Of a DNA stretch of 49,299 bases, positions 275-43,486 are shown piece after piece. A model generated the notes under the pieces. The model was not told the DNA's origin. It did not search any database and saw only the letters and a list, made by a program, of their open reading frames with translations. Where the stretch lies: positions 1 through 49,299 of IMG/VR virus record IMGVR_UViG_3300045141_000355, one strand, 5' to 3'. Every line of letters begins with the position of its first letter. Position 1 is the first letter of the stretch. The translations under genes were made by a program, and so were the position numbers. The stretch comes from a virus.

Positions 275-831
275 GGCAGCGTGTAGGAGAGCGGCGCGCC
301 GATCAGCGCCAGCTTGGTGCGGCCGGAGTCGCCGGCCAATGTGAAACTGCCGGCGTTCGCCATGGCGCGCATCTTGATCACGTAGGCCGTGGCCGCGGCG
401 AGCTGGAGGGTCACGAAGCCGGCGGCGGTGGCGCGCTCGCCGTTGGTCAAGTTGCCGGTGACGATGCCGGTGTTGATCTCCGCCGCGCCGTTGACCGACA
501 CCGCGATGGTGTACGCCGAGCCGCCGGCGGTGGCGGTGGCGTCCACCTGGATCAGCACCACCGCCTGCGCCCGGATGGCCGAGGTGAAGCTGAGCGCCAG
601 CGGCGGGCTGCCCACGTCCACGAAGCTCGCGCTGTTGAGGGTGAACGGCGCGGTCAGCGCCACTTGGGGCAGGATGAACGGCTGGGTGAAGTTGATGCGC
701 GCGTGCGCCGCCCGCACCCACTGCTCCAGCCCGTGCAGGCGGCCGGCCAGCACGCGCTGGAACTCGGCTGGGTCCTCCGGCAGGCTGCCGAGGACCCAGC
801 GGGGCGTGAAGTCTGGCGACTGGACGGGCAT
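271..831 (-). CDS. Virion-associated beta-sandwich protein, unknown (186 aa)
   Basis: The first ~50 residues look helical (LHGLEQWVRAAHARI). The rest is Ala/Thr/Val-rich with alternating hydrophobics, as in small phage beta-sandwich domains (TNF-like or decoration folds). It sits between the nozzle-like 675-aa protein and the GNAT-like protein, so a virion or tail role is likely. The ATG at 831 has no Shine-Dalgarno: the bases upstream of it are the antisense of the cargo promoter at 831-859. Stop and next start overlap as ATGA at 271-274. No family recognised. Confidence 0.75.
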   Translation of the reverse strand: MPVQSPDFTPRWVLGSLPEDPAEFQRVLAGRLHGLEQWVRAAHARINFTQPFILPQVALTAPFTLNSASFVDVGSPPLALSFTSAIRAQAVVLIQVDATATAGGSAYTIAVSVNGAAEINTGIVTGNLTNGERATAAGFVTLQLAAATAYVIKMRAMANAGSFTLAGDSGRTKLALIGAPLSYTLP

Positions 832-859
832 TGACTTATGCGGTCTTCGGTGACATAAT
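831..859 (+). promoter_or_regulatory. Cargo-type sigma70-like promoter, copy 1
   Basis: -35 TTGACT at 831-836, a 17-bp spacer, -10 CATAAT at 854-859. It follows the shared pattern TTGACTTATGCG-N8-TGACATAATC. It drives the plus-strand gene at 879. The first T of the -35 is the last base of the start codon (CAT on this strand) of the opposite-strand 186-aa gene. Confidence 0.85.
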
Positions 860-878
860 CAGCGGGAAAGGAGACACC

Positions 879-1184
879 ATGGCTGATTTTGCACCGACCG
901 ACCGTATCTCTCGGCAGTACCTGAGAACCGGCCAGCCGCGAGCCTATGCCGACAGCTTCTACGAGGCGCGCATTCTGTGGGAATGGCGCGGCACGAACGA
1001 CAAGGGCGACTGGCAGCCCCGACCCATCGCGGAGAGCGTCGCGAAGGAGATGCTGGTGCCGCTGGTGAAAGCCGGCGTGCAGCCGGCTGGTGAGGGAAAC
1101 TGGGCGAGCCCACGCCTTCGCGAGTGCGTCCAGGAGGCGCCGGGCCAGTGGCGCATCCTGGTAGTCTCGCCGTACACCGACTGA
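879..1184 (+). CDS. Cargo (moron) gene 1, unknown 101-aa protein
   Basis: Start chosen at ATG 879, which has a strong AAAGGAG 6-7 nt upstream and lies 20 nt after the -10; the frame stays open further upstream but into the promoter. The product (MADFAPTDRISRQYLRTGQP...) is soluble and mixed-charge, with no signal or membrane segment and no recognised domain. It is on the plus strand inside the minus-strand structural operon and ends 3 nt before the stop of the 675-aa gene, with no terminator between them. Own promoter, own SD and opposite strand mark it as a moron-like cassette. Confidence 0.8.
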   Translation: MADFAPTDRISRQYLRTGQPRAYADSFYEARILWEWRGTNDKGDWQPRPIAESVAKEMLVPLVKAGVQPAGEGNWASPRLRECVQEAPGQWRILVVSPYTD

Positions 1185-1187
1185 CGC

Positions 1188-3215
1188 TCACAGGCTGATC
1201 GTCTCCAGGTTGCCCGACACCTCACCCTCGATCTCCATCCGCGTCCACGCGCTCTTGAGCGTGGACGCGCTCGCGGTCTGGACGCGCACCCGCAGGATGT
1301 GGCCGGCCACGCCCTGCGGGGCGTAGAAGGCGCCCGCGGCCTGCGCCTGGGCGTAGAGCAGCCAGTCCCACTCGGGGAAACTGAACTGCACCGGCTGCTC
1401 GCCCCCGACCACCTGGCCCACCGTCTTCGACACCGGCGGCTGGAAGGTGACGCCGCCGTTGCGCGACACCGAGACGTTGATCGTCTCGGTGTCGGCGGTC
1501 AGCCCCCGGAACCACAGCACCACCCGCCTGATGAACTTGTAGTTGAGCGGCGCCTGCCAGTCGAGGTCATCGGTGTCCACCAGGAACCCGCCGGCGCTGG
1601 CGCCGGCGAAGGGCGCGATGGCGTCGGTGAAGAGGGCCTCGCTGTACCCCCACAGGACATTCCTGGCCGAGCCGTCCGACTGGTCGAGCGAGGCCACGCC
1701 GACGAGCGCCTGGCTGTTCTGGCGCGACGCCGCCCGGTCGTCGCGGTCGGACACCGCGCCGATCGGGCACGGGAGCTGGCTGGGCCACCAGCGCTTGTAC
1801 TCCACCTGGTAGCGCCAGGCGAGCGTCGTCGGCGACTGCTCGAAGAATAGAACGTACTCCCCGCCCCGGAAGGTGTCGAAGGAGGCGTGGAGGTGGCTGC
1901 GCATCGCCTGGCGGTCCACGTTCACGAAAGCCTGGCGAACTTGCCTGCCAATCTCTTGGTTCATGTACCCGTTGAACTCGTAGACGGACCCGTTGGCGGC
2001 CACGAAGCGCTCGCACCCCTCGAAGCCGCCGCCGCCGTGCTTGAGCGTGCGCGGGCAAAAGCAGCCGGCGTCGGCAGAGCTGTCCTGGAAGGCGAACGGG
2101 GGCGAGCCGTCCCCGGTGGGGCCGGTCGCCGCCGGCACGCCGAGCACGATGCCATCCTCGAAGTGGAGGGTGAGCTGGGTCTGGATGCGGCCGAGCGAGT
2201 GGATCGGGCCGGGGTGCAGCACCACCTCGCTGAAGCCGCCCGGGGAGACGGTCCACACGTTGTCCACCAGGTCGGAGGACCAGTAGATGAGGTTCTCGTC
2301 CCCGGTGATGACCACCCGCCCATCCTGGGCGAGCTGGAGGCCGCTGATGTCGCTGTGGCCGGCGATCACGTCCATGGCCGGGCTCGCCTGGAGCACGCTG
2401 TTCGAGACGATGTAGGCGGTCGTGGGCGAGCCCGAGAGGATGTTGGAGACCTTGATGACGCAGGGCTTGGGCTGGCCATCCGCCCGCCCGCAGAACGTGC
2501 CGGCGACGTAGAGCGTCTCGTTGAACACCTGGGCGAAGATGAGCGAGCTGCGCTCAAGGGTCGTGCCGCCGGGGAAGGTGCGGACGATGGTGTAGGCGAG
2601 GCCGGAGGCAGTCGAGCCGGCGTAGTTGGCGGCCAGCGTCAAGCTGGTGTTCGACACCACCGTGCAGACCTGGTAGGTGACGCCCGCGATGGTGATGTAC
2701 TGGAGCGGGCTGATGCCGTTGTCCACCCACAGCGTCGAGGTGCCGGTGACCGTCTTGCTGCCGTTGGTAACGGCGACCGTGCCGACCACGTAGGTGGGCG
2801 TCACGTTCGCCCAGGTGGCGCAGGAGTCGATCGAGAGGTAGATGCCCTTGGTGGTGACGATCACCGTCGTCTCGGCGCCCCCCGGGTAGTTGTACTCCGG
2901 GGCGCAGCTGCCAGTCTGCGAGGTGGTGGTGGCGCCGATGGGCGAGACGGCGGTGTAAATCCAGACCGGGATCTCGCCCTTGTGCTGGGCGAGGAAGGCC
3001 CCCAGCGCCGCCGGTGCGATGGGGGGCTGAGTGACCGTCGAGGCGAGCGGCGCGATCTTCGGCCTGCCGACCAGCAGGCCGTCGCGGCCGACGACGTTCA
3101 AGGTGTTCCGCCAGATGGCCGGCGCCTGTGGCCCCGGCGCCAGCGAGCGCGGCGGGGCCAGCGGGTCCCAGCCGCGGGTCATGTCGCCGTAGACGAGGGG
3201 TGCGGTCGGGGGCAT
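1188..3215 (-). CDS. Putative tail nozzle / tail tubular B-like protein (675 aa)
   Basis: Long beta-rich protein. The N-terminus has the look of podovirus nozzle proteins: a Pro-rich start, then NTLNVVGRDGLLVGRPKIAP, similar to the N-terminal region of T7 gp12 homologues, where a Gly-Arg-Pro segment precedes a beta-propeller. Many short repeats of aromatic/Gly/Thr strands follow. It lies after two adaptor-like genes and before the GNAT-like gene, the T7 gp11-gp12-gp13 order. The ATG at 3215 lacks a Shine-Dalgarno, its upstream bases being the antisense of promoter copy 2. Role inferred from context and general fold; no catalytic motif seen. Confidence 0.6.
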   Translation of the reverse strand: MPPTAPLVYGDMTRGWDPLAPPRSLAPGPQAPAIWRNTLNVVGRDGLLVGRPKIAPLASTVTQPPIAPAALGAFLAQHKGEIPVWIYTAVSPIGATTTSQTGSCAPEYNYPGGAETTVIVTTKGIYLSIDSCATWANVTPTYVVGTVAVTNGSKTVTGTSTLWVDNGISPLQYITIAGVTYQVCTVVSNTSLTLAANYAGSTASGLAYTIVRTFPGGTTLERSSLIFAQVFNETLYVAGTFCGRADGQPKPCVIKVSNILSGSPTTAYIVSNSVLQASPAMDVIAGHSDISGLQLAQDGRVVITGDENLIYWSSDLVDNVWTVSPGGFSEVVLHPGPIHSLGRIQTQLTLHFEDGIVLGVPAATGPTGDGSPPFAFQDSSADAGCFCPRTLKHGGGGFEGCERFVAANGSVYEFNGYMNQEIGRQVRQAFVNVDRQAMRSHLHASFDTFRGGEYVLFFEQSPTTLAWRYQVEYKRWWPSQLPCPIGAVSDRDDRAASRQNSQALVGVASLDQSDGSARNVLWGYSEALFTDAIAPFAGASAGGFLVDTDDLDWQAPLNYKFIRRVVLWFRGLTADTETINVSVSRNGGVTFQPPVSKTVGQVVGGEQPVQFSFPEWDWLLYAQAQAAGAFYAPQGVAGHILRVRVQTASASTLKSAWTRMEIEGEVSGNLETISL

Positions 3216-3243
3216 TGACTTATGCGGAGTGGGATGACATAAT
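3215..3243 (+). promoter_or_regulatory. Cargo-type sigma70-like promoter, copy 2
   Basis: -35 TTGACT at 3215-3220, 17-bp spacer, -10 CATAAT at 3238-3243. Same motif as copy 1 except for the variable N8 (GAGTGGGA). The -35 overlaps the last base of the 675-aa gene's start codon on the other strand. It serves the gene at 3372 through a ~120-nt leader. Confidence 0.85.
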
Positions 3244-3371
3244 CAGAGCGAAGCCGGGGATAGGGGAAGCCGCAGCCCGACTACACAGGTCGCAAGCCTG
3301 CTCTGGCCGAAGGGTGGTAACCCCGACAAGCGCCGTTCCGGAGCGGCGCTTCTCCGGCCCCTGGAGGGCAA
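3244..3371 (+). other. Long leader or possible small RNA of cargo gene 2
   Basis: About 120 nt separate the -10 from the SD of the 71-aa gene; the other cargo genes have 6-28 nt. It contains a perfect 8-bp stem AAGCGCCG/CGGCGCTT with an 8-nt loop just upstream of the SD, preceded by further GC-rich segments able to pair. No T-run follows, so it is not an ordinary terminator. It could be a structured 5' UTR, an attenuator or a small RNA. No known riboswitch consensus recognised. Confidence 0.35.
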
Positions 3372-3587
3372 ATGACGGACTGGACGCTGAACACCACCGT
3401 AGCCGACTACCCGCACCTCGACAGGGGCGAGAGCACTATCGTTGTCACGAGCGGCGGAGAGCTTGAGATCGAGCTGTACGACGGTCATGATCGCCTCATC
3501 GCCTTCATCCCCATCGAGACGATGGAACGCCTGATCGCCGCCTGGCGCACGCGCCCCTGTCTCGGCCTCACTGATCCCTCCGGCTGA
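3372..3587 (+). CDS. Cargo (moron) gene 2, unknown 71-aa protein
   Basis: ATG at 3372 follows GGAGGGCAA, a good SD. The product (MTDWTLNTTVADYPHLDRG...) is acidic and soluble with a central beta-like stretch (STIVVTSGGELEIELYD) and no signal peptide or cysteine motif. Its last 20 bp overlap the end of the convergent 266-aa gene. Own promoter (copy 2) and opposite orientation class it as cargo. Function unknown. Confidence 0.75.
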   Translation: MTDWTLNTTVADYPHLDRGESTIVVTSGGELEIELYDGHDRLIAFIPIETMERLIAAWRTRPCLGLTDPSG

Positions 3588-4368: not shown

Positions 4369-4377
4369 CGCGGCGCC

Positions 4378-5510: not shown

Positions 5511-5515
5511 GGGGC

Positions 5516-5544
5516 TTGCTCTATGCTATTCCCTGTGACATAAT
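5516..5544 (+). promoter_or_regulatory. Cargo-type sigma70-like promoter, copy 3
   Basis: -35 TTGCTC at 5516-5521, 17-bp spacer beginning TATGCT and ending TGA, -10 CATAAT at 5539-5544. Same family with a weaker -35. The expected start of transcription (about 7 nt after the -10) falls on the GTG of the methyltransferase gene at 5551. Confidence 0.8.
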
Positions 5545-5550
5545 CAGCGG

Positions 5551-7371: not shown

Positions 7372-7374
7372 GGC

Positions 7375-7626: not shown

Positions 7627-7636
7627 GTGCGGCCTT

Positions 7637-8005: not shown

Positions 8006-8008
8006 CGG

Positions 8009-16791: not shown

Positions 16792-17009
16792 GCCTCATAG
16801 GCTAGATGGCCTATGCGTAGTGAGTCAATGTCTAGCGGGATGACATACGGGAACAGCAGCTACCCCTGGTCGCCAGTTATTCCCCGGCAGGGGCGACTCC
16901 GCGCTACGCCAGCGGGCGTTTCGGCCGAAGCCTCGTCAGGCGCTAAAATGCCGGGCCAGATGCTCGCTGCACAGGGTAGCCATGCGAGCCCACGCGGAGA
17001 CATTCTACC
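16792..17009. other. Terminase-portal intergenic gap
   Basis: An unusual 218-bp gap in a unit whose genes otherwise abut. I see no convincing gene: a minus-strand 15-codon ORF starts at 16,983 (MATLCSEHLARHFSA) without a good SD, and longer frames lack support. It contains a degenerate copy of the cargo promoter on the plus strand. No tRNA cloverleaf found. It may be the scar of a lost cargo cassette. Confidence 0.4.
16821..16849 (+). promoter_or_regulatory. Degenerate copy of the cargo promoter
   Basis: TGAGTC at 16,821-16,826, 17-bp spacer ending TGA, CATACG at 16,844-16,849. It keeps the spacing and the TGACATA core but has lost the -35 consensus, and no good gene follows. Probably a decayed element. 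Confidence 0.3.
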
Positions 17010-19774: not shown

Positions 19775-20027
19775 CGGCCTTTCGTTTCAGGTACGCAGAA
19801 TGGTCGCAGTTCTTGCAGAACGACAGGAGCCCATCGAAGGTGACTGCGTTGTGCGAAAAGTCGGCGAGCGGCAGGACGCGCGCGCAGCGGGCGCAACTCT
19901 TTGACTCGACGCCGTGGAGGATCAGGTGTGGCGTGTGGATACGCCCCCTTCTGGTAGCAGCGCCCTTCATCCGCCGCAGCTCACTGGCCAGCGGCCCGCG
20001 GTCTCCGTAGGCTTCCTCCAACCTCAC
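19764..20027 (-). CDS. Zinc-ribbon protein, HNH-accessory type (87 aa)
   Basis: Cys45-x2-Cys48 (SCARCARVLPLADF) and Cys71-x2-Cys74 (FCKNCDHS) form a four-cysteine zinc ribbon; the CxxC-LPLxxFS...DGLxxxCKxC spacing is the one seen in small phage proteins linked to HNH endonucleases. No His-Asn-His catalytic residues follow, so it is not itself a nuclease. Near terminase, where HNH proteins often aid packaging cleavage. Confidence 0.65.
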   Translation of the reverse strand: MRLEEAYGDRGPLASELRRMKGAATRRGRIHTPHLILHGVESKSCARCARVLPLADFSHNAVTFDGLLSFCKNCDHSAYLKRKADAP

Positions 20028-20782
20028 CGCAGCCCCCTGCTGTCGCCTTCGTCCAGCACCACCTCGCCCGTGTCGGGCTCGGCCAGCTCGGGCGACGCCG
20101 CCCAGCTCTCCAGCGGGTGCGATCCGTAGTTGCGCAAGGTCTCGCCTTCCTCCGGCTCCGCCTTGAGCTTACAGAGAATCTGGCCCGGCGTCACCAGCCA
20201 GAGCGTGCGGCAGGGGTGGATGCCGAAGGCGATCGAGCGCCCGAGGACCATCGAGGTGAGCAGCACGCGCTCGCCGGGGGCGAAGCCCTGCACGCCGCTG
20301 CCCACGTGGCGCACCAGCGCCTCGTGGGCGCGGGTCTGCGTCCGGGTCGAGGGCGGGATGTGGATCTTGCCCCGCTGGAGCGGCATCTCCTCCCGCTCCA
20401 CCAGGAGGTGGGCGGGAGGGGCGCAGCACCACTCTGCCGCTTCGATGTCGGAGAGCCCGTAGTCTTCCTTGACGGACAGGTCGGCGTAGACCAGCTTGAT
20501 CGGCAGCAGCGCCAGCACGTGCTCCGGCCGCACCACCTTGACCTGATCCTCGACCTCGATGCCTTCCAGGGCGAGGGTGGTGCCAGCGAAGAGCGAGAGC
20601 ACCACCCGCTCGCCGCCCTGGTAGAAGCGCTGCTCGGGGCCGACGCAGAGCACGCGGGCGGTCTGCGAGGGCTCCTTGGCTGAGGTGTCCAAGCGGTAGA
20701 AGCTGCCGATCTTCTCCGATTCCTGGTCAACCCTGACCAGCAGCTCGTCGCGGAGCAGGCAAATCAGGTCGGCGATGGGCAT
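20024..20782 (-). CDS. Tandem GroES/Cpn10-like co-chaperonin (252 aa)
   Basis: Two Cpn10-like units. Unit 1 (~10-93): DELLVRVDQESEKIGSFYRL, VLCVG, GERVVLSLFAGTTLALEG, then VRPEHVLALL, matching the GroES order mobile loop, V.AVG, GD.V...YAGT, and ...EDDILA. Unit 2 (~123-207): HLLVEREEMPLQRGKIHIPP, GFAPGERVLL, GRSIAFG, VTPGQILCKL. An acidic tail (208-252) follows. Such proteins cap a chaperonin ring to fold capsid protein, as T4 gp31 does. Start ATG 20,782 preferred to 20,800 on SD grounds (GGAAG). Fused tandem units recall plant Cpn20. Confidence 0.75.
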   Translation of the reverse strand: MPIADLICLLRDELLVRVDQESEKIGSFYRLDTSAKEPSQTARVLCVGPEQRFYQGGERVVLSLFAGTTLALEGIEVEDQVKVVRPEHVLALLPIKLVYADLSVKEDYGLSDIEAAEWCCAPPAHLLVEREEMPLQRGKIHIPPSTRTQTRAHEALVRHVGSGVQGFAPGERVLLTSMVLGRSIAFGIHPCRTLWLVTPGQILCKLKAEPEEGETLRNYGSHPLESWAASPELAEPDTGEVVLDEGDSRGLR

Positions 20783-24677: not shown

Positions 24678-24706
24678 TCTAGGCATGCTCTGCATGATGA
24701 CATAGC
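24678..24706 (+). promoter_or_regulatory. Cargo-motif copy overlapping the late promoter
   Basis: TCTAGG, then CATGCT-N8-TGACATAGC at the same spacing as the functional copies: -35-equivalent 24,678-24,683, -10-equivalent CATAGC 24,701-24,706. It covers the -10 and spacer of the opposing minus promoter. A poor -35 makes it a weak promoter; a protein or polymerase bound here would interfere with late transcription. Confidence 0.35.
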
Positions 24707-24722
24707 CGGCGGCGGCTGTCAA
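24694..24722 (-). promoter_or_regulatory. Main promoter of the minus-strand (late) unit
   Basis: On the minus strand: -35 TTGACA (24,722-24,717), 17-bp spacer, -10 CATCAT (24,699-24,694). It is the only clear promoter upstream of the regulator-packaging-structural gene series. It overlaps a plus-strand copy of the cargo motif (24,678-24,706), and nested inverted repeats lie ~30 bp upstream of its -35. Confidence 0.65.
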
Positions 24723-25290: not shown

Positions 25291-25318
25291 TTGACAAGCT
25301 CGGGAGAGGTGCTATCAT
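25291..25318 (+). promoter_or_regulatory. Strong sigma70-like promoter in the control region
   Basis: TTGACA at 25,291-25,296, 16-bp spacer, TATCAT at 25,313-25,318. A very good consensus match, yet no gene with an SD follows for 450 bp. It may make a long early leader or a small RNA running toward 25,777. The ATG at 25,317 lies inside the -10 and is not usable from this start. Confidence 0.6.
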
Positions 25319-28298: not shown

Positions 28299-28327
28299 TG
28301 CACTTATGCTAGACTCCGTGACATAAC
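28299..28327 (+). promoter_or_regulatory. Cargo-type promoter inside the early operon
   Basis: TGCACT at 28,299-28,304, 17-bp spacer TATGCT-N8-TGA, CATAAC at 28,322-28,327. Same architecture as the cargo promoters with weaker hexamers. It would boost the second half of the early unit, starting with the gene at 28,342, and links the early genes to the cargo regulon. Confidence 0.65.
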
Positions 28328-28341: not shown

Positions 28342-28740
28342 ATGAGCTTCCGAGACGATGGTAACCCCCAGTACTTTGAAGGCGCCCGCGAGGCGCTGCT
28401 CCAGGTGGCTCAAGGCCAACTGCCGGCCGATGCGCCGAGCCTGGCCACGACCATGAACCAGGTGATCGACGCTATCCACGCCGCCGAGCTGCGCGCCCAG
28501 GCAGCCGAGGAGCGCTGGCACCGCGAGCAGGGCGAGCCGGCGCTGAGCGAGCGGGATCTGCTTGCGGCAGCTGCTCGCGATGACGAGATCGCCGGACTGG
28601 AGCCTGTCGAGGCCGACCCGGCCGAGATGGAGCGCCTGTGCCGCGAGCAGCCGCAGCGCGAAGGCGACGCGGCAAGCGCGAAGGAGCTGATGGAGATGCA
28701 GGAATGGGGGCCGTCGATTGCCCCGGTGAACGAGCCATGA
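28342..28740 (+). CDS. Acidic coiled-coil early protein (132 aa)
   Basis: AAAAGGAGGGGAG gives a strong SD for ATG 28,342. Product is acidic and helical (MNQVIDAIHAAELRAQAAEE, EADPAEMERLCREQPQREGD). No domain recognised. Stop overlaps the ATG of the nuclease, so it may be a partner of it. Confidence 0.65.
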   Translation: MSFRDDGNPQYFEGAREALLQVAQGQLPADAPSLATTMNQVIDAIHAAELRAQAAEERWHREQGEPALSERDLLAAAARDDEIAGLEPVEADPAEMERLCREQPQREGDAASAKELMEMQEWGPSIAPVNEP

Positions 28741-29732
28741 GCCGCCTGGTGAACGACCTCGCCAGCCCCGCTCTCTTCGAAGCGATCGCCGCGCAGAGCG
28801 GCCCGCGCAACCTGGGCGCTCTCAGCGTCAGCGAGCTGATCGCGCCCCCCCGCGCCCGCCAACTGATGCTGGCCAACCCCGATCTCCCCGAGGCCGCCAG
28901 CGGCGCGCTGTGGCGCGCCTTCGGCAGCGGCGTCCACATGCTCATCGAGGCCATCCCCGAGGCCCGCAGGGCCGAGCTGGGCATGGTCTGCGAGCGGCGG
29001 CTGTGGGCCGGCGACATCCTCGATGGGGAGGGTGGGTGGCACAGCGGCATCCGCCGCTCCGACGCCGCCACCTTCGAGCGGCTGGCCGCCTACGTGGGCG
29101 GCCAGGGCTGGCGCTGGTGCGGCAAACCGGATGTGGTGTACGAGAAGGACTACATCGTGCGCCTGGAAGGCCACGCCGGCATTCTCCAGCGGCAGGCCGG
29201 CGACATCGAAGACCTGAAGGTCACCAAGTGCTTCGCTGTCTCGGGGCTGCTCAAGGGCGGGCTGCGCGGCTCCAAGCTCTACGGCCCCAAGCTCAAGGAG
29301 GAGTGGGAACAGCAGCTGAACCTCTACGCCGAGCTGCAACGCCGGCAGGGCCGCATCCAGCCCAACCGCCTGTACCTGACCGCCATCCTCAAGGACTGGG
29401 CAGCGACCGGCCTGGAGGCCGAGCGCCAGCGCGAGCAGATGCCCTTCCTCACCTCGGAGACTCTCACGCTGGAGGCGCCGCTCTGGCCCCGCGAGCAAGC
29501 GCTCGCCCTTGTGCGCGAGCGCTTGCTGCTGCACGCGGCAGCCGAGCGGGAGCTGCCGCTTTGTTCCAGCGCGGAGCGCTGGGGCGGCCGGCGGTGTGAG
29601 AAGTGGTGCGGCGCATTCGGCGCCTGCACCCAGGCCAACCCGGCCGCCTACGGGCCGGCGTCCGATGACACGCTCGAAGAGCAGCTGCGCGCCTCGCTGG
29701 CGCACCTGGCGAGCGGAAGGGAGGGGGCGTGA
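28737..29732 (+). CDS. RecB/Cas4-like PD-(D/E)XK nuclease (331 aa)
   Basis: Motifs in order: GSGVHMLIE (64-71, motif I His), GHAGILQ (145-151), the catalytic core DIEDLKVTK (156-164; Asp159, Lys161), and QLNLYAEL (193-200), the Q-x3-Y motif of RecB/Cas4 families. C-terminal cysteines 275, 286, 290 and 296 could hold an Fe-S cluster, but the upstream partner cysteine usual in Cas4 is not obvious. A 5'-3' exonuclease or recombination role is likely; host DNA degradation is possible. No CRISPR array is present. Confidence 0.8.
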   Translation: MSRLVNDLASPALFEAIAAQSGPRNLGALSVSELIAPPRARQLMLANPDLPEAASGALWRAFGSGVHMLIEAIPEARRAELGMVCERRLWAGDILDGEGGWHSGIRRSDAATFERLAAYVGGQGWRWCGKPDVVYEKDYIVRLEGHAGILQRQAGDIEDLKVTKCFAVSGLLKGGLRGSKLYGPKLKEEWEQQLNLYAELQRRQGRIQPNRLYLTAILKDWAATGLEAERQREQMPFLTSETLTLEAPLWPREQALALVRERLLLHAAAERELPLCSSAERWGGRRCEKWCGAFGACTQANPAAYGPASDDTLEEQLRASLAHLASGREGA

Positions 29733-34675: not shown

Positions 34676-34727
34676 ACGGTCTCCTTCCAGAAGCCGGCCG
34701 GCGTCAGGCCGGCTGGCGGCATTTCTA

Positions 34728-35267: not shown

Positions 35268-35279
35268 GGCATCAACCTT

Positions 35280-36140
35280 CTAGGCGTTGGCTGGTTTGAA
35301 GGTCCCGCCCAGCACGGTCTCCTGCGGGGCGCCGTCGCCAACCGGGACGGCGGCGCCGCCGGGGCGCCCCGCGTCGCGGCGCTGGCCGCTGGCTGGCGAG
35401 GTGGTCAGGTCGAGCGAGGTCCACACCACCGGGAAGGGGGCAACACTCAGCTGCGCCTGGTCCAGCTCGGTCGTCTTCAGCTTGCTCGGCCATACCCGCA
35501 CGCGGATGGGGGTGCCAAGCTTGAGCGGGACGCCGGCCAGCACCCAATGTGCCGGGCCGAGCGCCGCCATCGCCACCTCCGCCGGCAGCCGCGGGCGCAG
35601 CCGCAGCCTGCCGCGCATGTACTCCAGCATCCAGGTGGACTGGTCAAAGTTGATGGCACTCTTGGGATCGGCGCGCATGCACGCCCCCCACACCCCGCCG
35701 GGGCCGTCCAGCGCCTCCAACAGCGTGCGCTCGGCGCCGAGCCAGGCGGCGGTAGCGGCAAGGAGCGCTGGGTGGTTCAGCTGGACCGCTACCTGGCGCA
35801 TGAGGATCGCGGCATTGTAGTAATAGGTGCGGTGGGGCTCGGGACAGTTGGTCTCCGGCCCCTGGTGCCCCTGCGCCTCGGCCCCGAGCCACGCCAGGGC
35901 GTCCACGACGGCGCCGGCCATGGACGGCGAGCTGTTGCGCACGTGGAAGTACCACAGCCGCGCGGCGGCCGAGAGTCCCTCGACGTTCCGGGTCTCCGCG
36001 TGCGCGCCGAGGGGCACCCGGGCCGGCGGCCCGGCCGGCAGGCCGGGCGGGGGTGGCAGCGCGCGGGCGCGGGAGGCCGAGAGCTTGAAAGCGCTCAGGC
36101 CCAGTGCTACCCACGGCCCGACCAGCTCGTCCGTCTTCAT
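35280..36140 (-). CDS. Unknown protein in the lysis-like module (286 aa)
   Basis: Mixed alpha/beta protein: WYFHVRNSSPSMAGAVVDAL, PHRTYYYNAAILMRQVAVQL, then beta-rich LKLGTPIRVRVWPSKLKTTE. No lysozyme, amidase or transglycosylase signature was seen, though its place suggests a lysis or tail role. It overlaps the start of the 111-aa gene by one base. The endolysin of this phage is not otherwise identified. Confidence 0.6.
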   Translation of the reverse strand: MKTDELVGPWVALGLSAFKLSASRARALPPPPGLPAGPPARVPLGAHAETRNVEGLSAAARLWYFHVRNSSPSMAGAVVDALAWLGAEAQGHQGPETNCPEPHRTYYYNAAILMRQVAVQLNHPALLAATAAWLGAERTLLEALDGPGGVWGACMRADPKSAINFDQSTWMLEYMRGRLRLRPRLPAEVAMAALGPAHWVLAGVPLKLGTPIRVRVWPSKLKTTELDQAQLSVAPFPVVWTSLDLTTSPASGQRRDAGRPGGAAVPVGDGAPQETVLGGTFKPANA

Positions 36141-36475
36141 CAGATGGGAGCGACGGGCACCACGCCGGCCGGCGGCGCGGGCGGAGCAACCGGGGCCGGC
36201 AGCGCGGCCAGCACGGCAGCCGACTGCGCCTGCACGTCGGCGGTGAGCGCGGTCAGCGCCGCGGCGTCGCCCGCCTCGGAGGCGGCGACGGCGGCGGCCA
36301 CCAGCGCGGGCACGCCCTTGGCGAAGGCTACGAGCTTGGCGAGCGCGTCATCTTCGGCGGCGATGGCGGCCTTGAGATCTTCGAGCTGCTGGGACATGAG
36401 GTCCACCTTTCGGGTGAGCAGGATCAGCATCGTCTCGATGCGATCGAATTGGGTGCAGCGATGACACCAGGACAT
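36140..36475 (-). CDS. Small coiled-coil protein (111 aa; possibly 85 aa)
   Basis: A typical phage coiled-coil: DRIETMLILLTRKVDLMSQQ, LEDLKAAIAAEDDALAKLVA, then Ala-rich helices and a Pro tail. The ATG at 36,475 has no SD and sits on the promoter-like element at 36,474. The ATG at 36,397 (MSQQLED) has an AGGTGG-type SD and would be the start if transcription began from that element. Unknown function. Confidence 0.6.
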   Translation of the reverse strand: MSWCHRCTQFDRIETMLILLTRKVDLMSQQLEDLKAAIAAEDDALAKLVAFAKGVPALVAAAVAASEAGDAAALTALTADVQAQSAAVLAALPAPVAPPAPPAGVVPVAPI

Positions 36476-36502
36476 TATGTCAGGCAGTATAGCATGGCTA
36501 GC
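36474..36502 (-). promoter_or_regulatory. Minus-strand copy of the cargo motif in the lysis-like module
   Basis: On the minus strand: GCTAGC, then CATGCT-N8-TGA, then CATAAT (36,479-36,474), exactly the spacing of the cargo promoters. The -35 is poor. It would support extra transcription of the lysis-like module. The only such copy with a near-intact -10 that points leftward. Confidence 0.45.
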
Positions 36503-36677: not shown

Positions 36678-36681
36678 GGGA

Positions 36682-37020
36682 CTACCTCCTTTGGAGCGGT
36701 TCCACGAGGGTTTCCAGCTTCTTGTCGATGCCGTCCAGCCGGCGCAGGGCTTCCTCGCCCTGCGCCCCGAAGCGGGCCGCCTGCCCGCTGCTGGCGGTCT
36801 GGTCGGCGGTGATCCGGGTGCGCACCTCGGCGATCTCCGCGCGCACGGCGGCCAGGTCGCTGTGGAAGGCATCCACCTGCGCCTGCTCGGTGCGGACGAA
36901 GAACCACATGGCGGCCACGGCCAGCGCCACCAGGGACACCAGCAGCTTGTCCTTGAAGCGGTCGAAGGTGGCCAACTCGCCGTTGCCGGCGGCTGGCGGG
37001 GTGCGGCGCACGGTCATCAT
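36682..37020 (-). CDS. Membrane-anchored coiled-coil protein (112 aa)
   Basis: One span at ~26-42 (KLLVSLVALAVAAMWFFV) followed by a long charged coiled coil (LAAVRAEIAEVRTRITADQT ... GIDKKLETLVEPLQRR). An N-terminal anchor with a periplasmic coiled coil is the plan of Rz-type inner-membrane spanins; it could pair with one of the nearby lipoproteins. ATG overlaps the end of the 1,351-aa gene. Confidence 0.55.
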   Translation of the reverse strand: MMTVRRTPPAAGNGELATFDRFKDKLLVSLVALAVAAMWFFVRTEQAQVDAFHSDLAAVRAEIAEVRTRITADQTASSGQAARFGAQGEEALRRLDGIDKKLETLVEPLQRR

Positions 37021-40000
37021 TGCGTGGCTACCTCCGCTTTGCCCGTGGCAGTCAGGGGTTGCGGGTACCTGCGGGCCTGGTCCTGGGCGTACTTGAGAAG
37101 CTTCTGCACCTTGATCTCCCCCATGGCCGCCTGCTCCGGGTCGCGCCGGTCGATGTGGCTCATCAGTATAGCAGTATCGCGATCGATGGCCTCCTGGTCA
37201 CCGCGCCGGAAGGCGTCGGTGAGCTGGGGCAGGGCGGTGTAGAAGGACAGCCCCTTGCTCAGCTGGAACGGCACCAGCAGCTGCTTGGCGATGTTGCCGG
37301 CGGTCAGCGGCTCCTGGGTGTCCACGAGCTTGCTGCCGGGGATCGGCATGAAGGGGCGCACCGCGGTCATCGTCCGGTCCTTCAGCTCGCCTTGCTTCAG
37401 CTGCGTCGTGCCGCGCCGGTCGGCCGCCTCCTGCTCCTTCGTCAGGTCGGTCGGGTAGCCGGAGGCGTAGTGCCCGCTCAGCTCGCCCAGCGCAGCGTTG
37501 GGGAGCGGGTTCACCTTGTTGCCGATGGTCGAGAGGAAGGGCGTCTCGTGCCAGCTCGGATCGCTCAGCGTGAAGTGGCTGGTGGCCACCGGCTCGTCAG
37601 CCCCCGGCCACGGGCCGTGGGGCTGGCGCAACCATTCCAGCGCCTGCCCCTGCGGGCCGGCGTGCGCCACCGCGCCAATCATGTTGGACACCCGCTCCTT
37701 GCCGATCACGTCGGGCAGCTCGCGCTGGAGCTTCATCACGTTCATGAACTCGTTGGGGCCGGTCTGGAGCTGCGTCTCCTTGCCTGGCTCGTTGTCGATC
37801 ATGAAGTGGCCCCGGCCGGTGGGCGAAAAGGCCCGGGTGAGCGCGTAGTTGGCGAGGTTCAGGCCCACCGCCGTCTGCCAGGCCAGGCGCATGTACATGT
37901 TGATGCCGAGCGCGCGCGTCACCGGATTGGGGGAGAGCGGCTCGCCCATCAGCTTGCTCCCCGAGGTGAACCAGTCCGGGGCCAGGAAGAGGCGGGAGAA
38001 CCACTTCTGGTAGGTCGGATCGTTCATGAACCTGGAGCGGAACAGCGCCCGGCTCTGGCCGCCGAAGGCGTTGTTCGTGGCGGCGGTGACGCCGGCGATG
38101 GCCTCGTCATCCGACAGCGCCCGGATGCGCCCGCGCTGGAGGAAGCCCCCCAGGCCCATCGCCATGTCCTCGCCGTTGCGCAGGCGCATCAGCTTGTCGC
38201 GGTTGATGGTCTGCACCATCACCTTGAGCGGCGCCATGTAGCCGGGGAACATCGCCTCGTGAGGAGAGGCGGCGACGTCGCCCAGCGTGCGCACCACCGC
38301 GGCGCCGGCTTTGGTGTCCATCAGGCCGGCGCGGAGCGCCAGGCCGTTGAGGGTCTTCTGGATCTGGATCATGTTGGTATCGGTCTCGGGGGAGGGGAAG
38401 TTGACCCCCTCCCGTGCCGCCTGCATCCAGGTCTCGCGCTCCAGGTTGCCCCAGCCCATGCGCTGGGTGAGCTGGTTGAGCCCCGGCGCTCCGAAGCCCC
38501 GCTTGAGCCCCTCCCACAGGGCCGGCGTGACGCCGCGCTGGAGGGCGTTCTGGATGGTCAGCTCCGCCGGATGGAACAGCGAGAAGCCGAGGAGCATCTG
38601 CTTGGCCGTGCCGGTGACGAAATCGTACTTGGCGCCTATCGGCCCCACGTCGGTACGCTTGATGAGCGGGGCGATGTTGTCGTAGAGGTTCTTGTGGACG
38701 TAGAGCGTCCCCTCGCCCGGGATCGCCCGCTGCATCAGCGGCACGCCGCTCATGTCCTGGTAGCCCGCCTGGCCGATGCGCTGAAGATCCGCGGGATCGC
38801 GGCCCTTCATGCGCAGGTAGGCCGGCTGCCCGTCGCTCATGGTCCTGATCTCCGATACGTCTTGCATCAGTCGATGGAGTGCTAAGGTATGGGAGAAGTC
38901 TTCGTCGCCGCGCCGCACCACCGTCGCGTAGTCGAGGGTGGTCGGCGTGCGGCCGGCGCGGAGGCCGGTGCCGAGGGTGGGGAACTCGCGGGCCTGGAGG
39001 ACGCTGGTGATCGGGTTCTCGGTGGGCTGGGGCGTCACCTCGGCGCGCGCTGGCGCGCCCTTCACCGGCTCCCACTGGTGGCGGATGTAGTCCGGCACCT
39101 CGGGCAGATCCTTCGGCATGAAGCCGAGATCCTGGAGGCCCTTGAAGTTGACGTGCCCCTGTTGGCGCTGGCGCTCGATTTCATCGAGCGCCGCCTGGCC
39201 GCCCTGCGGGTGATCGCGGACGAACTGCTCCGCCGCCGGCTGCATCGGGTCGTTGCGCTCCACCGCCAGCGTCATCTGCTTGCGCAGCTCCGGGTCCGGG
39301 AACTGGCGCATGAGGTCGGTCTCGTGGAACGTCGCCGCCTGGCGGTCGGCGGCCTCCTGGTTCACGAAGGACCGGCGCAGCGGGTAGAACTGCCGCCAGC
39401 TCCGCTGCGCCGCGCTGGAGGCGAAGGGGTTGGCGGCGAAGCCGGCCTCGCCGCTGTGCAGCTCGGCCGCTACCGCGCCCGCCGCGGGCGGCGGGGGCGC
39501 CGCGGCTTCGGACCCGGCGGCACCGGGGGCTTCGGCAACTGGGCGCCCAGCGAGGGCAGCTTCGCCTCGGGCAAGGTCGGCGCCCGCGGAGCCAAGGGCG
39601 CCGGCTTGAAGGGCTGGACCTCCGGCATGAGCTTGACCGCCGGGGCCTTCGGCGGCGCCGGCGGCGTCGCCAGGGGCGGCTCCTGCAAGCCCTTCATGTG
39701 GAACTGCGTACCCTTGGGAAAGCTCGCCAGGACGTGCGGCAAGGGGAGCGACGCCGCCTGCCCCGGCAGCTTCCCCATCAGCGACAGCGGGAAGTGCTGG
39801 ACGGGCTGCGAGAACGCGGCCTGCAAGGGCATCAGGCCCTGCGGCTTCGGGGGATAGGCCATACGTCACCTCGATGGGGATGTGGACCTGCGAGCCGTCC
39901 GGGAGCGTCGCCACCAGCGGGTGCTGGGCCAGGTGCGCCTGCGCGGCGGCGAGGGTCTCGTGCAGGTGCGCCTCGTTGTCGGCGGCCACCGACACGCTGC

Positions 40001-41072
40001 CGTCCTCGCCCAGCGCCGCCCGTCCCGGGGCGGCGCGGTCGAGCGCCTGATGGACCGCCTGCTGCATCGCGCCCATCGTCTCATCGCCCAGGCCCTGGTG
40101 CGTGGCGTCGAGTTGGACGTGGCCCTGGACCGGCGCGCCCAGCGGCGCCGCGGCAGCCGCCGGCACGCCGGCGAGCTGGGCGCCGGAGCCCAGCGGGCGC
40201 TCGCCCATGGTGGCGCCGGGGAAGCGCTTGGCCATGTGGGCTGTCGCCGCCGCGGTGCGCGGCACCGCCTCGGCGATGCCGCCGGTCAGGTAGTCGGGGA
40301 GCGGCGGCCGGTCCAGGGCGGCCATGCCGCCGACAGCGCCGATGCTAGCGCCGTAGAGGGCGGCGTGCGCCGCGGCGCTGAGCCGCTCCCCGGTCGGGGA
40401 GCCGTAGGCGCTGGCGTACCCCAAGGGAGCGGTGATGGTGGCCCCGGCAAGGGAGCCCTTGCCGGCTGTGGCGACGTTCGCCAGCCCACCCACCCCGGAG
40501 TACCCCTTGGCCAGAGATCGGGCCGCAGAGGGCACGCCAGCAAGCATGGGCAGGGCGTTGACGCCCAGCTCGGTGGCGAACTCGGCCGCCGCCCCACCCG
40601 TCCCGGGGTGGGCGGCGAGGAAGTCCTGGCGCTGCTGCTCGGCTTTCGCCTTCAGCTCGGCGGTCAGGCCCTGCGGCACCGCCTGCGCCCGCTGGGCGGC
40701 CTGCGGGCCGGCCACGACGGCTGCGAGGGTGGGGTGCTGCGCCGCCCAGTCCCGGAAGGTCTCGGCCGCGCCGGCCAGCGGCACGCCGAAGGCGTTGGTG
40801 GCGGCGGCCTGCGCCGCGGTGAGGAAGCTGGCGTCCGGTGGCTTCTCCTGGCGCATGCCGGGGTTGAGCCCGCTGGGCGCCCCCTGAGCCGCCAGGTAGG
40901 CGCCCAGGGCCGGGCGGCCCTTGGCCTTCACCAGGTCGGCGCTGGTGGGTGGCTCCGGCATCCCGGTGAGGTACGCCGGGAGCGCCGGGAGATCGGCGCC
41001 AGCGGGCGGCGGAGCCGCGGGGGGCGGCGCGTCGCCGGTCAGGTAGGACGGCAAGGCCGGGGCGTCGGGCAT
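37017..41072 (-). CDS. Very large virion protein, probable ejection protein (1,351 aa)
   Basis: Longest gene here. The N-terminus repeats a short motif Leu-Pro-x-Tyr-Leu-Thr-Gly (LPSYLTG, LPAYLTG, LPDYLTG near residue 257). Ala/Pro-rich region to ~550, then a helical part (YPLRRSFVNQEAADRQAATF) and a C-terminal half of helices and loops (QMLLGFSLFHPAELTIQNAL, LFLAPDWFTSGSKLMG). Size and place match T7 gp16, the large DNA-ejection protein; no transglycosylase motif found. The ATG has no SD and abuts cargo promoter 4. Confidence 0.7.
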   Translation of the reverse strand: MPDAPALPSYLTGDAPPPAAPPPAGADLPALPAYLTGMPEPPTSADLVKAKGRPALGAYLAAQGAPSGLNPGMRQEKPPDASFLTAAQAAATNAFGVPLAGAAETFRDWAAQHPTLAAVVAGPQAAQRAQAVPQGLTAELKAKAEQQRQDFLAAHPGTGGAAAEFATELGVNALPMLAGVPSAARSLAKGYSGVGGLANVATAGKGSLAGATITAPLGYASAYGSPTGERLSAAAHAALYGASIGAVGGMAALDRPPLPDYLTGGIAEAVPRTAAATAHMAKRFPGATMGERPLGSGAQLAGVPAAAAAPLGAPVQGHVQLDATHQGLGDETMGAMQQAVHQALDRAAPGRAALGEDGSVSVAADNEAHLHETLAAAQAHLAQHPLVATLPDGSQVHIPIEVTYGLSPEAAGPDALAGRVLAARPALPAVADGEAAGAGGVAPLAARPGELSQGYAVPHEGLAGAAPGDAAGAAEGPGGQAHAGGPALQAGALGSAGADLARGEAALAGRPVAEAPGAAGSEAAAPPPPAAGAVAAELHSGEAGFAANPFASSAAQRSWRQFYPLRRSFVNQEAADRQAATFHETDLMRQFPDPELRKQMTLAVERNDPMQPAAEQFVRDHPQGGQAALDEIERQRQQGHVNFKGLQDLGFMPKDLPEVPDYIRHQWEPVKGAPARAEVTPQPTENPITSVLQAREFPTLGTGLRAGRTPTTLDYATVVRRGDEDFSHTLALHRLMQDVSEIRTMSDGQPAYLRMKGRDPADLQRIGQAGYQDMSGVPLMQRAIPGEGTLYVHKNLYDNIAPLIKRTDVGPIGAKYDFVTGTAKQMLLGFSLFHPAELTIQNALQRGVTPALWEGLKRGFGAPGLNQLTQRMGWGNLERETWMQAAREGVNFPSPETDTNMIQIQKTLNGLALRAGLMDTKAGAAVVRTLGDVAASPHEAMFPGYMAPLKVMVQTINRDKLMRLRNGEDMAMGLGGFLQRGRIRALSDDEAIAGVTAATNNAFGGQSRALFRSRFMNDPTYQKWFSRLFLAPDWFTSGSKLMGEPLSPNPVTRALGINMYMRLAWQTAVGLNLANYALTRAFSPTGRGHFMIDNEPGKETQLQTGPNEFMNVMKLQRELPDVIGKERVSNMIGAVAHAGPQGQALEWLRQPHGPWPGADEPVATSHFTLSDPSWHETPFLSTIGNKVNPLPNAALGELSGHYASGYPTDLTKEQEAADRRGTTQLKQGELKDRTMTAVRPFMPIPGSKLVDTQEPLTAGNIAKQLLVPFQLSKGLSFYTALPQLTDAFRRGDQEAIDRDTAILMSHIDRRDPEQAAMGEIKVQKLLKYAQDQARRYPQPLTATGKAEVATQ

Positions 41073-41100
41073 TGACTTATGCGATTAGCGGTGACATAAT
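41072..41100 (+). promoter_or_regulatory. Cargo-type sigma70-like promoter, copy 4
   Basis: TTGACT at 41,072-41,077, 17-bp spacer, CATAAT at 41,095-41,100. The -35 overlaps the last base of the 1,351-aa gene's start codon on the other strand. ATG 41,107 is only 6 nt after the -10, so the mRNA is expected to be leaderless. Confidence 0.85.
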
Positions 41101-41106
41101 CAGGGG

Positions 41107-41592
41107 ATGAGAGACGACGAGAGCGAAGCCGCCAGCGAGCGCACCCCCTACCTTGGCTTCGATTGGGGGCCTGGTCCGGCCCTTCCGCGGCTGCACGTCG
41201 TCGGCGCGGATGGCTGCTGGACCATCAGCCCCGATCCGGTGCGCGAAGGGTGGGAGACCGACAGTAACAGCCCCGTCTACGGGCTGCCCCGGTGGGTGGC
41301 GGAGGCCCTTGCGAACGCTGCCAACGCCAGGGTAGTAACCATCGACCCGTCGCAGCAACTGACGGACGAAGAAGTAGCGCGGTACGCTCGACAGACGGCC
41401 GACCTCTGCGACACCCTCCGGGCCTACCATCAGAGGGTTCGGGCGTGCATCAGCAACCTCGGCGCCGGCATGGTTCTGCGCCTGCCGCCCGAGGCCGAGG
41501 AGAAGGATTGGCAGGCATACTTCACCATCTGGCAGGAGGGGTTCTTCCGCTGCCAGAGGATGCTGCTGGAAATGCTCGACAGAGAGTGGTGA
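41107..41592 (+). CDS. Cargo (moron) gene 4a, unknown (161 aa)
   Basis: ATG falls at the predicted transcription start, without SD. Acidic N-terminus (MRDDESEAASERTPYLGFDW), beta segment (LPRLHVVGADGCWTISPDPV), then a long helical part (DEEVARYARQTADLCDTLRA, ACISNLGAGMVLRLPPEAEE). No recognised domain. It forms a two-gene cassette with 41,596, 3 nt apart, inserted opposite to the virion genes. Confidence 0.75.
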   Translation: MRDDESEAASERTPYLGFDWGPGPALPRLHVVGADGCWTISPDPVREGWETDSNSPVYGLPRWVAEALANAANARVVTIDPSQQLTDEEVARYARQTADLCDTLRAYHQRVRACISNLGAGMVLRLPPEAEEKDWQAYFTIWQEGFFRCQRMLLEMLDREW

Positions 41593-41595
41593 ACC

Positions 41596-41802
41596 ATGCA
41601 TATCAAGTGCGACACCTGCGGCCGATTCATCAAGCACTCCGACATCGACGCCGGGCGCGCCCTGTTCCGGGTCGAGACCGTCGCCGACGCCGGGGGCATG
41701 CCGATCGACCAATGGGAGGCCGAGTGCCCCGAACACGCCCCCGACCTGTCCGACACCTACAACCCCACCATCAGCGGGAATGCCAGCCCTGCGGGAGTGT
41801 AG
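41596..41802 (+). CDS. Cargo (moron) gene 4b, zinc-motif protein (68 aa)
   Basis: MHIKCDTCGRFIKHSDIDAG (Cys5, Cys8) and AECPEHAPDLS (Cys44, His47) give a compact C-C-C-H zinc site, a common type of phage accessory protein. Weak SD (GTGGTGAACC), so probably coupled to the gene before. Ends 7 bp before the stop of the convergent 549-aa gene. Confidence 0.7.
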   Translation: MHIKCDTCGRFIKHSDIDAGRALFRVETVADAGGMPIDQWEAECPEHAPDLSDTYNPTISGNASPAGV

Positions 41803-41808
41803 CACCGG

Positions 41809-43458
41809 CTACTCCTCCGGCTCGGGCTCTTCGGCCGGCGCGGCGGGCTCCGCCGCCGCCGGCAGCGCCTGCGGCGCCACCTGGAGGCCACCGCCACCGG
41901 AGACGGTCGAGGGGCCGGAGCGGCGCAGGTAGTTCCGCACCTGCTGGCGCACCTGCGGGGAGGGGATCGCCAGGCCCGAGGCCGCCTGGAGGGCGGCCAT
42001 CGGGTCGGCGCCCTTCGAGAGCGCAGCGTCGTAGGCTTGGTTGGCCTTGAGCACCCGGGCCTGGTACTGCGTCGGGTCCGACTGCTGGCCGATCCACTGC
42101 GCCAGCAAGCGCCGGTGGCCGGCGCTGATGGCGCCGGCCGTGGCCTGGTCGCCCATGTTGCCGGCCATGCCCTTGGGCATCGTGGTCATGATCTGCTGGA
42201 GGCCCAGCGCCCGCTTCTGCGCCTCCGTCGCCGCCATCGTCGGCGGCAGGAGGCCCATCGCCACCTCGGAAGTCACCGAGTCGCCAATGGCGCCGGCGGC
42301 GCCGGGCGGCAGGGTGGGGGGCATCGAACGCTTGAGGGCGGCGAGGTCGCTCGGCTTCATCGTCCCGCCCTGGGTCTGCACCTTGAAACTTGCCAGCCAC
42401 TGCTTCTGGTTGAGGGCGGCGGCGGTTTGCGCGGCGATGAGGGGGTCTCCCGTGTTGTTGCCGAAGAGCTTGCCCTGCTGGTCGAGCAGGCCGACCCGGT
42501 TCTTGAAGGTTTGGTCCTCCTGCGCCGCGGTCAGCTGGTGCGAGAGGTAGATCCGGCCGGCGGCGTCCCTGTTGTGCAGGATCTCGCTGTCGATCTGGTG
42601 CTGATGGCGGGTGGCCTCCAGGCTCGCGCTGTTCTGAAACTGCGTGCCCAGCTTCCAGACCTCGGCCCCCGCGGGGTCGAGCGTGAGAAACTGCCGTACC
42701 GCTTGCTGGTCCTCAGGCTTCCACTGCGACATCTGCGTCAGGTCCGGCGGCAGGCCCTTGAGCATGGCGTAGAGCAGGATCTTGCTCTCCGGCCCGGTGC
42801 CGAGCTTGCGCGGGTCGAAGCCGGTCAGCGGCGCCGGCAGCATCGCGGCCACGCCCTGATGCTTGGGGTCGATGGCCTCGGCGTAGAGCCGGGCGTTGAA
42901 CTCCTGCTGCGCGGTCAAGCTGTTGAGCGCTGTCCGCGGCACGCCGACCGACTGCGCCGCCTGGAGACTCTGCATCAGCGGCTGCTTGGCCGGGTTGGGG
43001 AGCGTCTGCGGCGGGCCGGGGATCTCCCCGCCCTGCCAACCGGGCGGTGGCTGGGGTGGGATGGTGATCGTGTCCGGCATCTGATTCGCCGCCGCTTGCA
43101 GGTCGGTCAGGTGGCCCTTGGCGGTGTCCACGGCGCCCAGGTAGGACTGGAAGTCCCCCTTGATCGAGGCCGCCTGCTGGGCGCGGCCCTGCATCGCCTG
43201 CACGAGGTAGGGCACCTCGGGGAACTGCGGCCCCACGCGGCGGGCGAGGTCCGGCCCCCAGGTGCTGGCCAGCTCCGGCATCTCCTGCGCCTCGCGGAAG
43301 AAGCGCTGGACCTCGCCCAGGGCCAGCGCCTTCTTTTGATCCTGCTGGCCTTGCAGCTCGGCCGCCACCTGCTGGAGGGCGTTGCCGAACTTGTAGACGG
43401 ACTCCCGCCGGTAGTCCGGGTCTTCGCCGCGCGAGCTGAAGCCGCCGCCGTAGGCCAT
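41809..43458 (-). CDS. Virion protein, probable internal/ejection protein (549 aa)
   Basis: Helical, Gln/Ala-rich protein: FGNALQQVAAELQGQQDQKK, RVGPQFPEVPYLVQAMQGRA, LEATRHQHQIDSEILHN, ending in a Pro/Ala/Glu tail. Position before the 1,351-aa gene corresponds to T7 gp15. No enzyme motif. The ATG at 43,458 lacks an SD, being set against cargo promoter 5. Confidence 0.6.
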   Translation of the reverse strand: MAYGGGFSSRGEDPDYRRESVYKFGNALQQVAAELQGQQDQKKALALGEVQRFFREAQEMPELASTWGPDLARRVGPQFPEVPYLVQAMQGRAQQAASIKGDFQSYLGAVDTAKGHLTDLQAAANQMPDTITIPPQPPPGWQGGEIPGPPQTLPNPAKQPLMQSLQAAQSVGVPRTALNSLTAQQEFNARLYAEAIDPKHQGVAAMLPAPLTGFDPRKLGTGPESKILLYAMLKGLPPDLTQMSQWKPEDQQAVRQFLTLDPAGAEVWKLGTQFQNSASLEATRHQHQIDSEILHNRDAAGRIYLSHQLTAAQEDQTFKNRVGLLDQQGKLFGNNTGDPLIAAQTAAALNQKQWLASFKVQTQGGTMKPSDLAALKRSMPPTLPPGAAGAIGDSVTSEVAMGLLPPTMAATEAQKRALGLQQIMTTMPKGMAGNMGDQATAGAISAGHRRLLAQWIGQQSDPTQYQARVLKANQAYDAALSKGADPMAALQAASGLAIPSPQVRQQVRNYLRRSGPSTVSGGGGLQVAPQALPAAAEPAAPAEEPEPEE

Positions 43459-43486
43459 TGACTTATGCGGTCTCCGGTGACATAAT
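43458..43486 (+). promoter_or_regulatory. Cargo-type sigma70-like promoter, copy 5
   Basis: TTGACT at 43,458-43,463, 17-bp spacer, CATAAT at 43,481-43,486. Nearly identical to copy 1 over ~40 bp, including the downstream GGAAAGGAGACA that supplies the SD of the cargo gene. Confidence 0.85.

Follow-up and report, generated by a model that had tools for sequence, protein, structure and literature searches.

Why would a phage carry accessory genes antisense within the operon that encodes its particle, and why should the same promoter stand in front of them at one gene junction after another? The question is raised by the window, i.e. the whole IMG/VR record IMGVR_UViG_3300045141_000355 (49,299 nucleotides, GC ~69%), in which five plus-strand genes or gene pairs lie at seams between minus-strand late genes. 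Based on promoter sequences, geometry, leaderless or Shine-Dalgarno starts, replacement of cargo at intact seams and a cargo family found in two seams, we suggest, with a probability of about 0.72, that these are moron-like antisense accessory cassettes that lack detectable terminators and would be expressed early from host-type promoters at late-gene seams.

Genome layout and the closest relative

The same 30 bases are present at both record ends (1-30 and 49270-49299), and joining the ends restores a 140-aa acetyltransferase-like (GNAT-like) ORF that matches its counterpart in a relative end to end. Thus, the window represents a complete, circularly mapped phage genome of ~49,269 bp and, with the circle closed, the five cassettes form a single contiguous set. 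Early genes are on the plus strand from 25.8 to 33.6 kb, while late genes are on the minus strand from ~24.6 kb down through position 1 and then from the other end to ~34 kb. Matches in the late block include the terminase (phrog_38), portal (phrog_1216), capsid (phrog_133) and tail-fibre-like genes. A late-block protein encoded at 20024-20782 (minus strand), which is 70% conserved in the relative, has a Cpn10 (GroES-like) match at 5e-5.

The relative, IMGVR_UViG_3300006028_000008, was reached via the 1351-aa late protein. Its record is 48,869 bp long and overlaps at the ends by 90 bp, so that this genome is complete as well; its late genes are collinear with those of the window and mostly 50-86% identical. 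An exact scan of IMG/VR with the cassette promoter motif gave no other contig, and a relaxed scan matched only this genome. It is the one relative that spans the cassette region, a third phage (L010/L016) covering head genes only; the distant capsid relatives L013/L014 (24%) have no other gene in common with the window and were dropped. Because terminase and portal had no match among 50,697 phage records, T4-like phages included, this phage is far from any described one; the 217-aa cargo protein had no match there either. Alignments of the major capsid protein and terminase against bacterial and archaeal genomes returned no prophage and no host, and no integrase or repressor was seen among those early genes that Pfam/PHROGs scans covered. 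The high GC content, the AAAGGAG Shine-Dalgarno sequence, the predicted leaderless starts and a methyltransferase whose nearest kin are actinophage enzymes hint at an actinobacterial host.

The cassette promoter and its cargo

A sequence-only reading had described one promoter pattern at five sites. The motif TTGACTTATGCG-N8-TGACATAATC is exact at four of them (831, 3215, 41072 and 43458, plus strand), while the fifth (5516-5545) reads TTGCTCTATGCTATTCCCTGTGACATAATC, with an exact -10 half, TATGC kept and a diverged -35 half that is absent from the 2-mismatch matches. Chance does not account for the pattern: the full motif occurred 0 times in 100 dinucleotide shuffles (expectation zero), and TGACATAATC is present 5 times in the window against ~0.01 expected, each time before a plus-strand ORF within the minus-strand late block, as had been proposed. 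The 17-bp spacer and the CATAAT -10 also proved correct, and all five promoters, like those of the relative, are by sequence of the extended -10 sigma-70 type. Aligned on the -10, the sites read TGA-CATAAT-CAGSGG (CAGAGC in cassette 2). Consensus scans of the window gave seven sigma-70 matches, i.e. four cassette promoters, one early promoter, one late promoter and one match inside a cassette ORF.

The geometry at the seams is equally regular. Each promoter directly adjoins the start codon of the following late gene as CAT-TGACTTATG and, at the four exact sites, the -35 overlaps this CAT by one base. On the other side, the distances between the end of the cargo and that of the late gene facing it are +3, -20, -10, +6 and -4 bp (cassettes 1-5), which bears out the tail-to-tail arrangement noted earlier. 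Thus, each cassette fills exactly one late-gene seam. No Shine-Dalgarno sequence stands before the late genes that lie behind TTGACTTATG cassettes, and their counterparts at empty seams have a GTG start with a strong Shine-Dalgarno sequence within the preceding gene. A mini-ORF (ATG-C...TAA/TGA) that crosses most promoters was set aside as a product of the fixed promoter letters and spacing.

In the relative, six antisense cassettes occupy late-gene seams, and a seventh cassette, in sense orientation, separates terminase and portal. Its genome has seven TGATATGATT sites against ~0.005 expected, all upstream of gene starts; these belong to five antisense cassettes, the sense cassette and the late promoter, and the sixth antisense cassette has TGATATACT. 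Aligned on the -10, they read TGA-TATGAT-TYAGGG or variants. Within either phage the -10 core is uniform, but the two phages differ in it. At most sites TTATGC precedes the TGA, by 9 nt in the window and by 8-9 nt in the relative.

Judging from these sequences, the promoter class is not confined to accessory cargo: the relative's late promoter has the -10 of its cassettes, and in the window a near copy (28304) stands directly upstream of the early exonuclease operon rather than of a cassette. Another, weaker copy (36497, minus strand) stands before a late-strand gene. It overlaps another extended -10 (TGCTATACT) and was left out of the cassette count. The small alanine-rich gene that TGCTATACT precedes (36140-36475, minus strand) is on the late strand here, while its homologue is on the early strand of the relative, i.e. 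its orientation has switched.

Table 1. Features of the window and the ten variable late-gene seams. Promoters are predicted from sequence; seams are labelled by their flanking genes.
Feature	Position	Strand	Evidence or content
Cassette 1 promoter, TTGACT-17-CATAAT, TG extended -10	831..860	+	exact motif; -35 overlaps start codon of 271-831 by one base
Cassette 1 cargo, 101 aa	879..1184	+	SD GAAAGGAG; coding score positive
Cassette 2 promoter	3215..3244	+	exact motif
Cassette 2 leader, ~127 nt, 9-bp hairpin	3245..3371	+	folding z-score -0.55
Cassette 2 cargo, 71 aa, no assigned family	3372..3587	+	coding score; seam empty (0 bp) in relative
Cassette 3 promoter, diverged -35 TTGCTC, exact TGACATAATC	5516..5545	+	sequence
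Cassette 3 cargo, C5 cytosine DNA methyltransferase, 220 aa	5551..6213	+	PF00145; phrog_363 5e-39
Cassette 4 promoter	41072..41101	+	exact motif
Cassette 4 cargo A, 161 aa, no assigned family	41107..41592	+	ATG 6 nt past -10 (leaderless)
Cassette 4 cargo B, 68 aa, no assigned family	41596..41802	+	CxxC near N-terminus; coding score
Cassette 5 promoter	43458..43487	+	exact motif
Cassette 5 cargo, 217 aa	43508..44161	+	SD AAAGGAG; family also in relative, one seam away
Late gene behind cassette 1	271..831	-	52% identity to relative; open in both
Late tail-fibre-like gene between cassettes 1 and 2	1188..3215	-	phrog_1980 tail fiber 6.6e-12; 82% identity to relative
Late gene behind cassette 4, 1351 aa; possible internal virion protein, by size and position only	37017..41072	-	68% identity to relative, full length
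Late gene between cassettes 4 and 5, 549 aa	41809..43458	-	69% identity to relative
Probable late-operon promoter, TTGACA-17-CATCAT	24694..24722	-	consensus scan
Probable early promoter, TTGACA-16-TATCAT	25291..25318	+	consensus scan
Near copy of cassette promoter core, TTATGC-N9-TGACATAAC	28304..28327	+	one mismatch to TTATGC...TGAYATRAT; early region; poor -35
Early gene pair behind 28304 promoter	28342..29732	+	28342-28740, then 28737-29732 exonuclease (phrog_2139 2.8e-8)
Seam terminase/portal			window: 218 bp, no called gene; relative: sense cassette
Seam 89aa/6204			window: empty (-1 bp); relative: 217 bp, antisense 63 aa
Seam 6204/4767			window: antisense methyltransferase; relative: sense 324-aa gene and lipoprotein-like ORF
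Seam 4767/4378			window: empty (-1 bp); relative: 509 bp, antisense Mom-like (XF1762) gene
Seam 3568/1188			window: 352 bp, antisense 71 aa; relative: empty (0 bp)
Seam 1188/271			window: antisense 101 aa; relative: antisense 53 aa, unrelated
Seam GNAT/47745			window: small sense ORF; relative: antisense tRNA-like
Seam 45335/44158			window: 133 bp; relative: antisense 198 aa
Seam 44158/41809			window: 699 bp, antisense 217 aa; relative: empty (0 bp)
Seam 41809/37017			window: antisense 161+68 aa; relative: antisense 133 aa, unrelated

As the sequence-only reading had it, the cargo consists of a methyltransferase and several proteins without known family (five of the six window proteins); the 101-aa protein, for instance, had no match in Pfam, PHROG, PADLOC or NCBIfam, and the AlphaFold models of two cargo proteins had pLDDT values of 51 and 46, too low to be informative. 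Only two cargo families can be named across the two genomes, and both are DNA-modification enzymes, i.e. the cytosine methyltransferase of the window and the Mom-like protein of the relative (XF1762 1e-57; phrog_1384).

A start codon lies 6-7 nt past the -10 in the methyltransferase gene, the gene at 41107, the Mom-like gene, the 53-aa gene and the sense cassette. Since this is where transcription is expected to start, the spacing suggests a leaderless arrangement, which is common in mycobacteria (PMC4633059). The GTG of the methyltransferase is 6 nt past the -10 and its actinophage homologues align from residue 1; more generally, methyltransferase and Mom-like homologues align from, or within one or two residues of, these starts. 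Among the other cassettes, GAAAGGAG-type sites are present, cassette 2 has a long leader, and the 63-aa ORF of the relative lacks a clear start. The cassette 2 leader was rejected as a known RNA because it matches no Rfam family, and it gives no sign of a selected structure, folding no better than shuffled sequences. A weak fluoride-riboswitch match at 38174, below threshold and inside a coding gene, was taken as chance. No plus-strand intrinsic terminator was found right behind any window cassette, although a GC-rich or factor-dependent one may be present. The cargo differs modestly in composition, with a GC3 of 0.80-0.90 where late genes have 0.92.

Cargo turnover at intact seams

Ten variable seams were compared between the window and the relative (Table 1). 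None of the ten has the same cargo in both phages, and at every seam the late ORFs on either side are open in the window as well as in the relative. Two seams have 0 bp between their flanking genes in the relative, and two others are filled in both phages with unrelated antisense cargo. The sole cargo family common to cassettes of both phages is that of the 217-aa protein of the window and a 198-aa protein of the relative (L005:4545-5141:-), which are 44.6% identical over residues 1-65 and are encoded in neighbouring but different seams. Presence or absence at intact seams together with a family in two seams indicates that whole inserts come and go and that one family changed place. Thus, the comparison with relatives that the sequence-only reading had called for, here run on one relative, agrees with its proposal of accessory genes with their own predicted promoters between intact virion genes, and these viruses appear, from the genomes compared, to swap accessory genes without harming particle genes.

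The further proposal that promoter and gene move together fared less clearly: the family in two seams speaks for movement, but the promoter type differs between its two copies (TGACATAATC versus TGATATGATT). Homologous cargo behind the promoter type of its own genome implies either that promoters were homogenised after the move or that they stayed local while the cargo changed. Uniformity within a phage could reflect concerted change through recombination or, alternatively, co-adaptation to the host or to a regulator.

Several other elements were observed in these regions. In the terminase-portal seam of the window (16792-17009, 218 bp), TATGCG and ATGACATA are present on the plus strand at the wrong spacing, and this seam is perhaps a cassette remnant. 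An antisense cassette of the relative (L006:5790-5990, minus strand) contains a tRNA-like sequence that is interrupted at the anticodon loop by an insertion of 80 nt; ARAGORN with introns reports it as tRNA-Arg(cct), and the Rfam tRNA model scores it at 14.7 bits, below the threshold of 29. The small lipoprotein-like, cysteine-rich sense ORF of the relative (L008:11027-11212, plus strand) has a cysteine pattern resembling that of a small ORF upstream of 3568h (L006 ~1590-1770). Upstream of the relative's late operon, a methyltransferase homologue (L007:955-1200, plus strand) has a leaderless-type start and an in-frame stop after ~41 codons and is probably a decaying copy.

A model for the cassettes and its alternatives

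In the model that we suggest, host sigma-70/SigA-type promoters in this tailed-phage genome would each drive an accessory gene or gene pair antisense in a late seam, and host RNA polymerase would read the cassettes early, on phage entry, as it would the early region. Early reading is proposed because the host-type promoter has a near copy before the early exonuclease operon, a single copy with a poor -35. Late transcription would then run head-on against the cassettes and may switch them off. With no terminator visible, cassette transcripts would either run antisense into the facing late gene or be stopped by an unrecognised terminator. The cargo may chiefly serve host takeover or counter-defence, and the DNA-modification enzymes would fit protection from restriction. 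Antisense orientation would allow a cassette to come or go without becoming part of the late transcript, and the short promoter, uniform in each genome, could provide shared homology for cassette exchange. Antisense orientation and protein cargo both have exceptions, since one cassette of the relative is sense and one has the tRNA-like element. More tentatively, we speculate that a ~35-bp promoter kept uniform by recombination might be a landing pad for gene capture at late seams, with the antisense direction splitting early cargo from late virion expression; such a system, which we consider possible rather than probable, would resemble the PeSLs (promoter early - stem-loop) known from T4-type phages, although it would have arisen independently of T4 and lie within a late operon.

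Could the antisense transcripts themselves be what matters, silencing virion genes early or blocking superinfecting phages, with the ORFs secondary? The absence of a terminator candidate right behind any window cassette and cargo ends that overlap or touch late-gene ends are compatible with this, and there is a precedent in STnc6030, an antisense RNA against tailspike and injection genes that brings about exclusion (PMC7067206). However, a well-placed start codon or Shine-Dalgarno sequence, or an RNA-like element, follows nearly every promoter, the cargo includes enzymes with full-length homologues, and the relative has no insert at all (0 bp) at two of the seams, so that silencing there is dispensable; we therefore regard a main role in antisense transcription as unlikely. 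A similarly low probability is given to the motif being the site of a phage regulator, operator or stoperator-like. In that case TGACTTATGC and TGACATAATC would be direct half-sites at a distance of 19 bp, and promoter activity would be secondary or absent. The two half-sites are indeed alike, and TTATGC lies between -35 and -10 in both phages though sigma-70 does not need it, but the sites are at gene starts with correct sigma-70 spacing, none is present at the main early promoter (25291), and the -10 of the relative is nearer consensus (TATGAT, TATACT), some of its sites having lost TTATGC.

The cassettes might also be ordinary long-resident genes with their own promoters, the phages differing by loss rather than by exchange or movement. 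Such an origin, which we consider very unlikely, would agree with a cargo GC3 close to, though lower than, that of late genes, and only two genomes span the region; against it stand the lack of shared cargo at all ten variable seams between flanks that are mostly 50-86% identical, the unrelated cargo at the two seams filled in both phages and the one family in different seams.

The design of these cassettes has parallels in known systems. Like morons (defined in PMC4378225) of lambdoid and Mu-like phages, they have their own promoter (here by sequence), lie between adjacent conserved genes, are present or absent in relatives and may differ slightly in composition from their neighbours. As for morons, the flanking genes are contiguous where the insert is missing, at 3568/1188 and 44158/41809 in the relative and, in reverse, at 89aa/6204 and 4767/4378 in the window. 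Unlike textbook morons, almost all are antisense, a near-identical promoter is present at every insertion, several seams per genome are occupied, several starts are predicted to be leaderless, there is no sign of a prophage state in the early genes scanned, and no recognisable intrinsic terminator lies behind the window cassettes. As described in papers that cite Arbiol 2010 and Comeau 2014, PeSLs are similar in their repeated short promoter units at seams and in the link of these units to gene shuffling; by contrast, the cassettes here lack the stem-loop terminator part (the only hairpin being in the cassette 2 leader), lie inside and face against the late operon, and belong to a 49-kb genome that is not of T4 type. 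Because the terminator shared by morons and PeSLs was not found, we do not class the cassettes as members of either group, despite their moron-like working and their likeness to PeSLs and to gene 53 of Corndog. The latter, a leftward gene in the rightward structural operon of a Cluster O mycobacteriophage, has a SigA-like promoter (PL2) and a predicted leaderless start (PMC4351075); however, it is a single gene, while here five and six antisense seams per genome are occupied, with near-complete cargo turnover. STnc6030, an antisense RNA of the Salmonella prophage BTP1, and antisense accessory genes of Salmonella prophages also have their own promoters and are antisense to lytic genes (PMC7067206), but these are a non-coding RNA or single genes in prophages, with no shared promoter family reported.

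The mechanism of moron acquisition has been called mysterious (PMC4378225). With its generality based on one full relative, the system described here would provide a compact, sequence-testable case of phages adding and swapping accessory genes inside an essential operon, in which promoter motif and seam position together may predict where undescribed counter-defence or host-takeover genes sit in uncultured phages.
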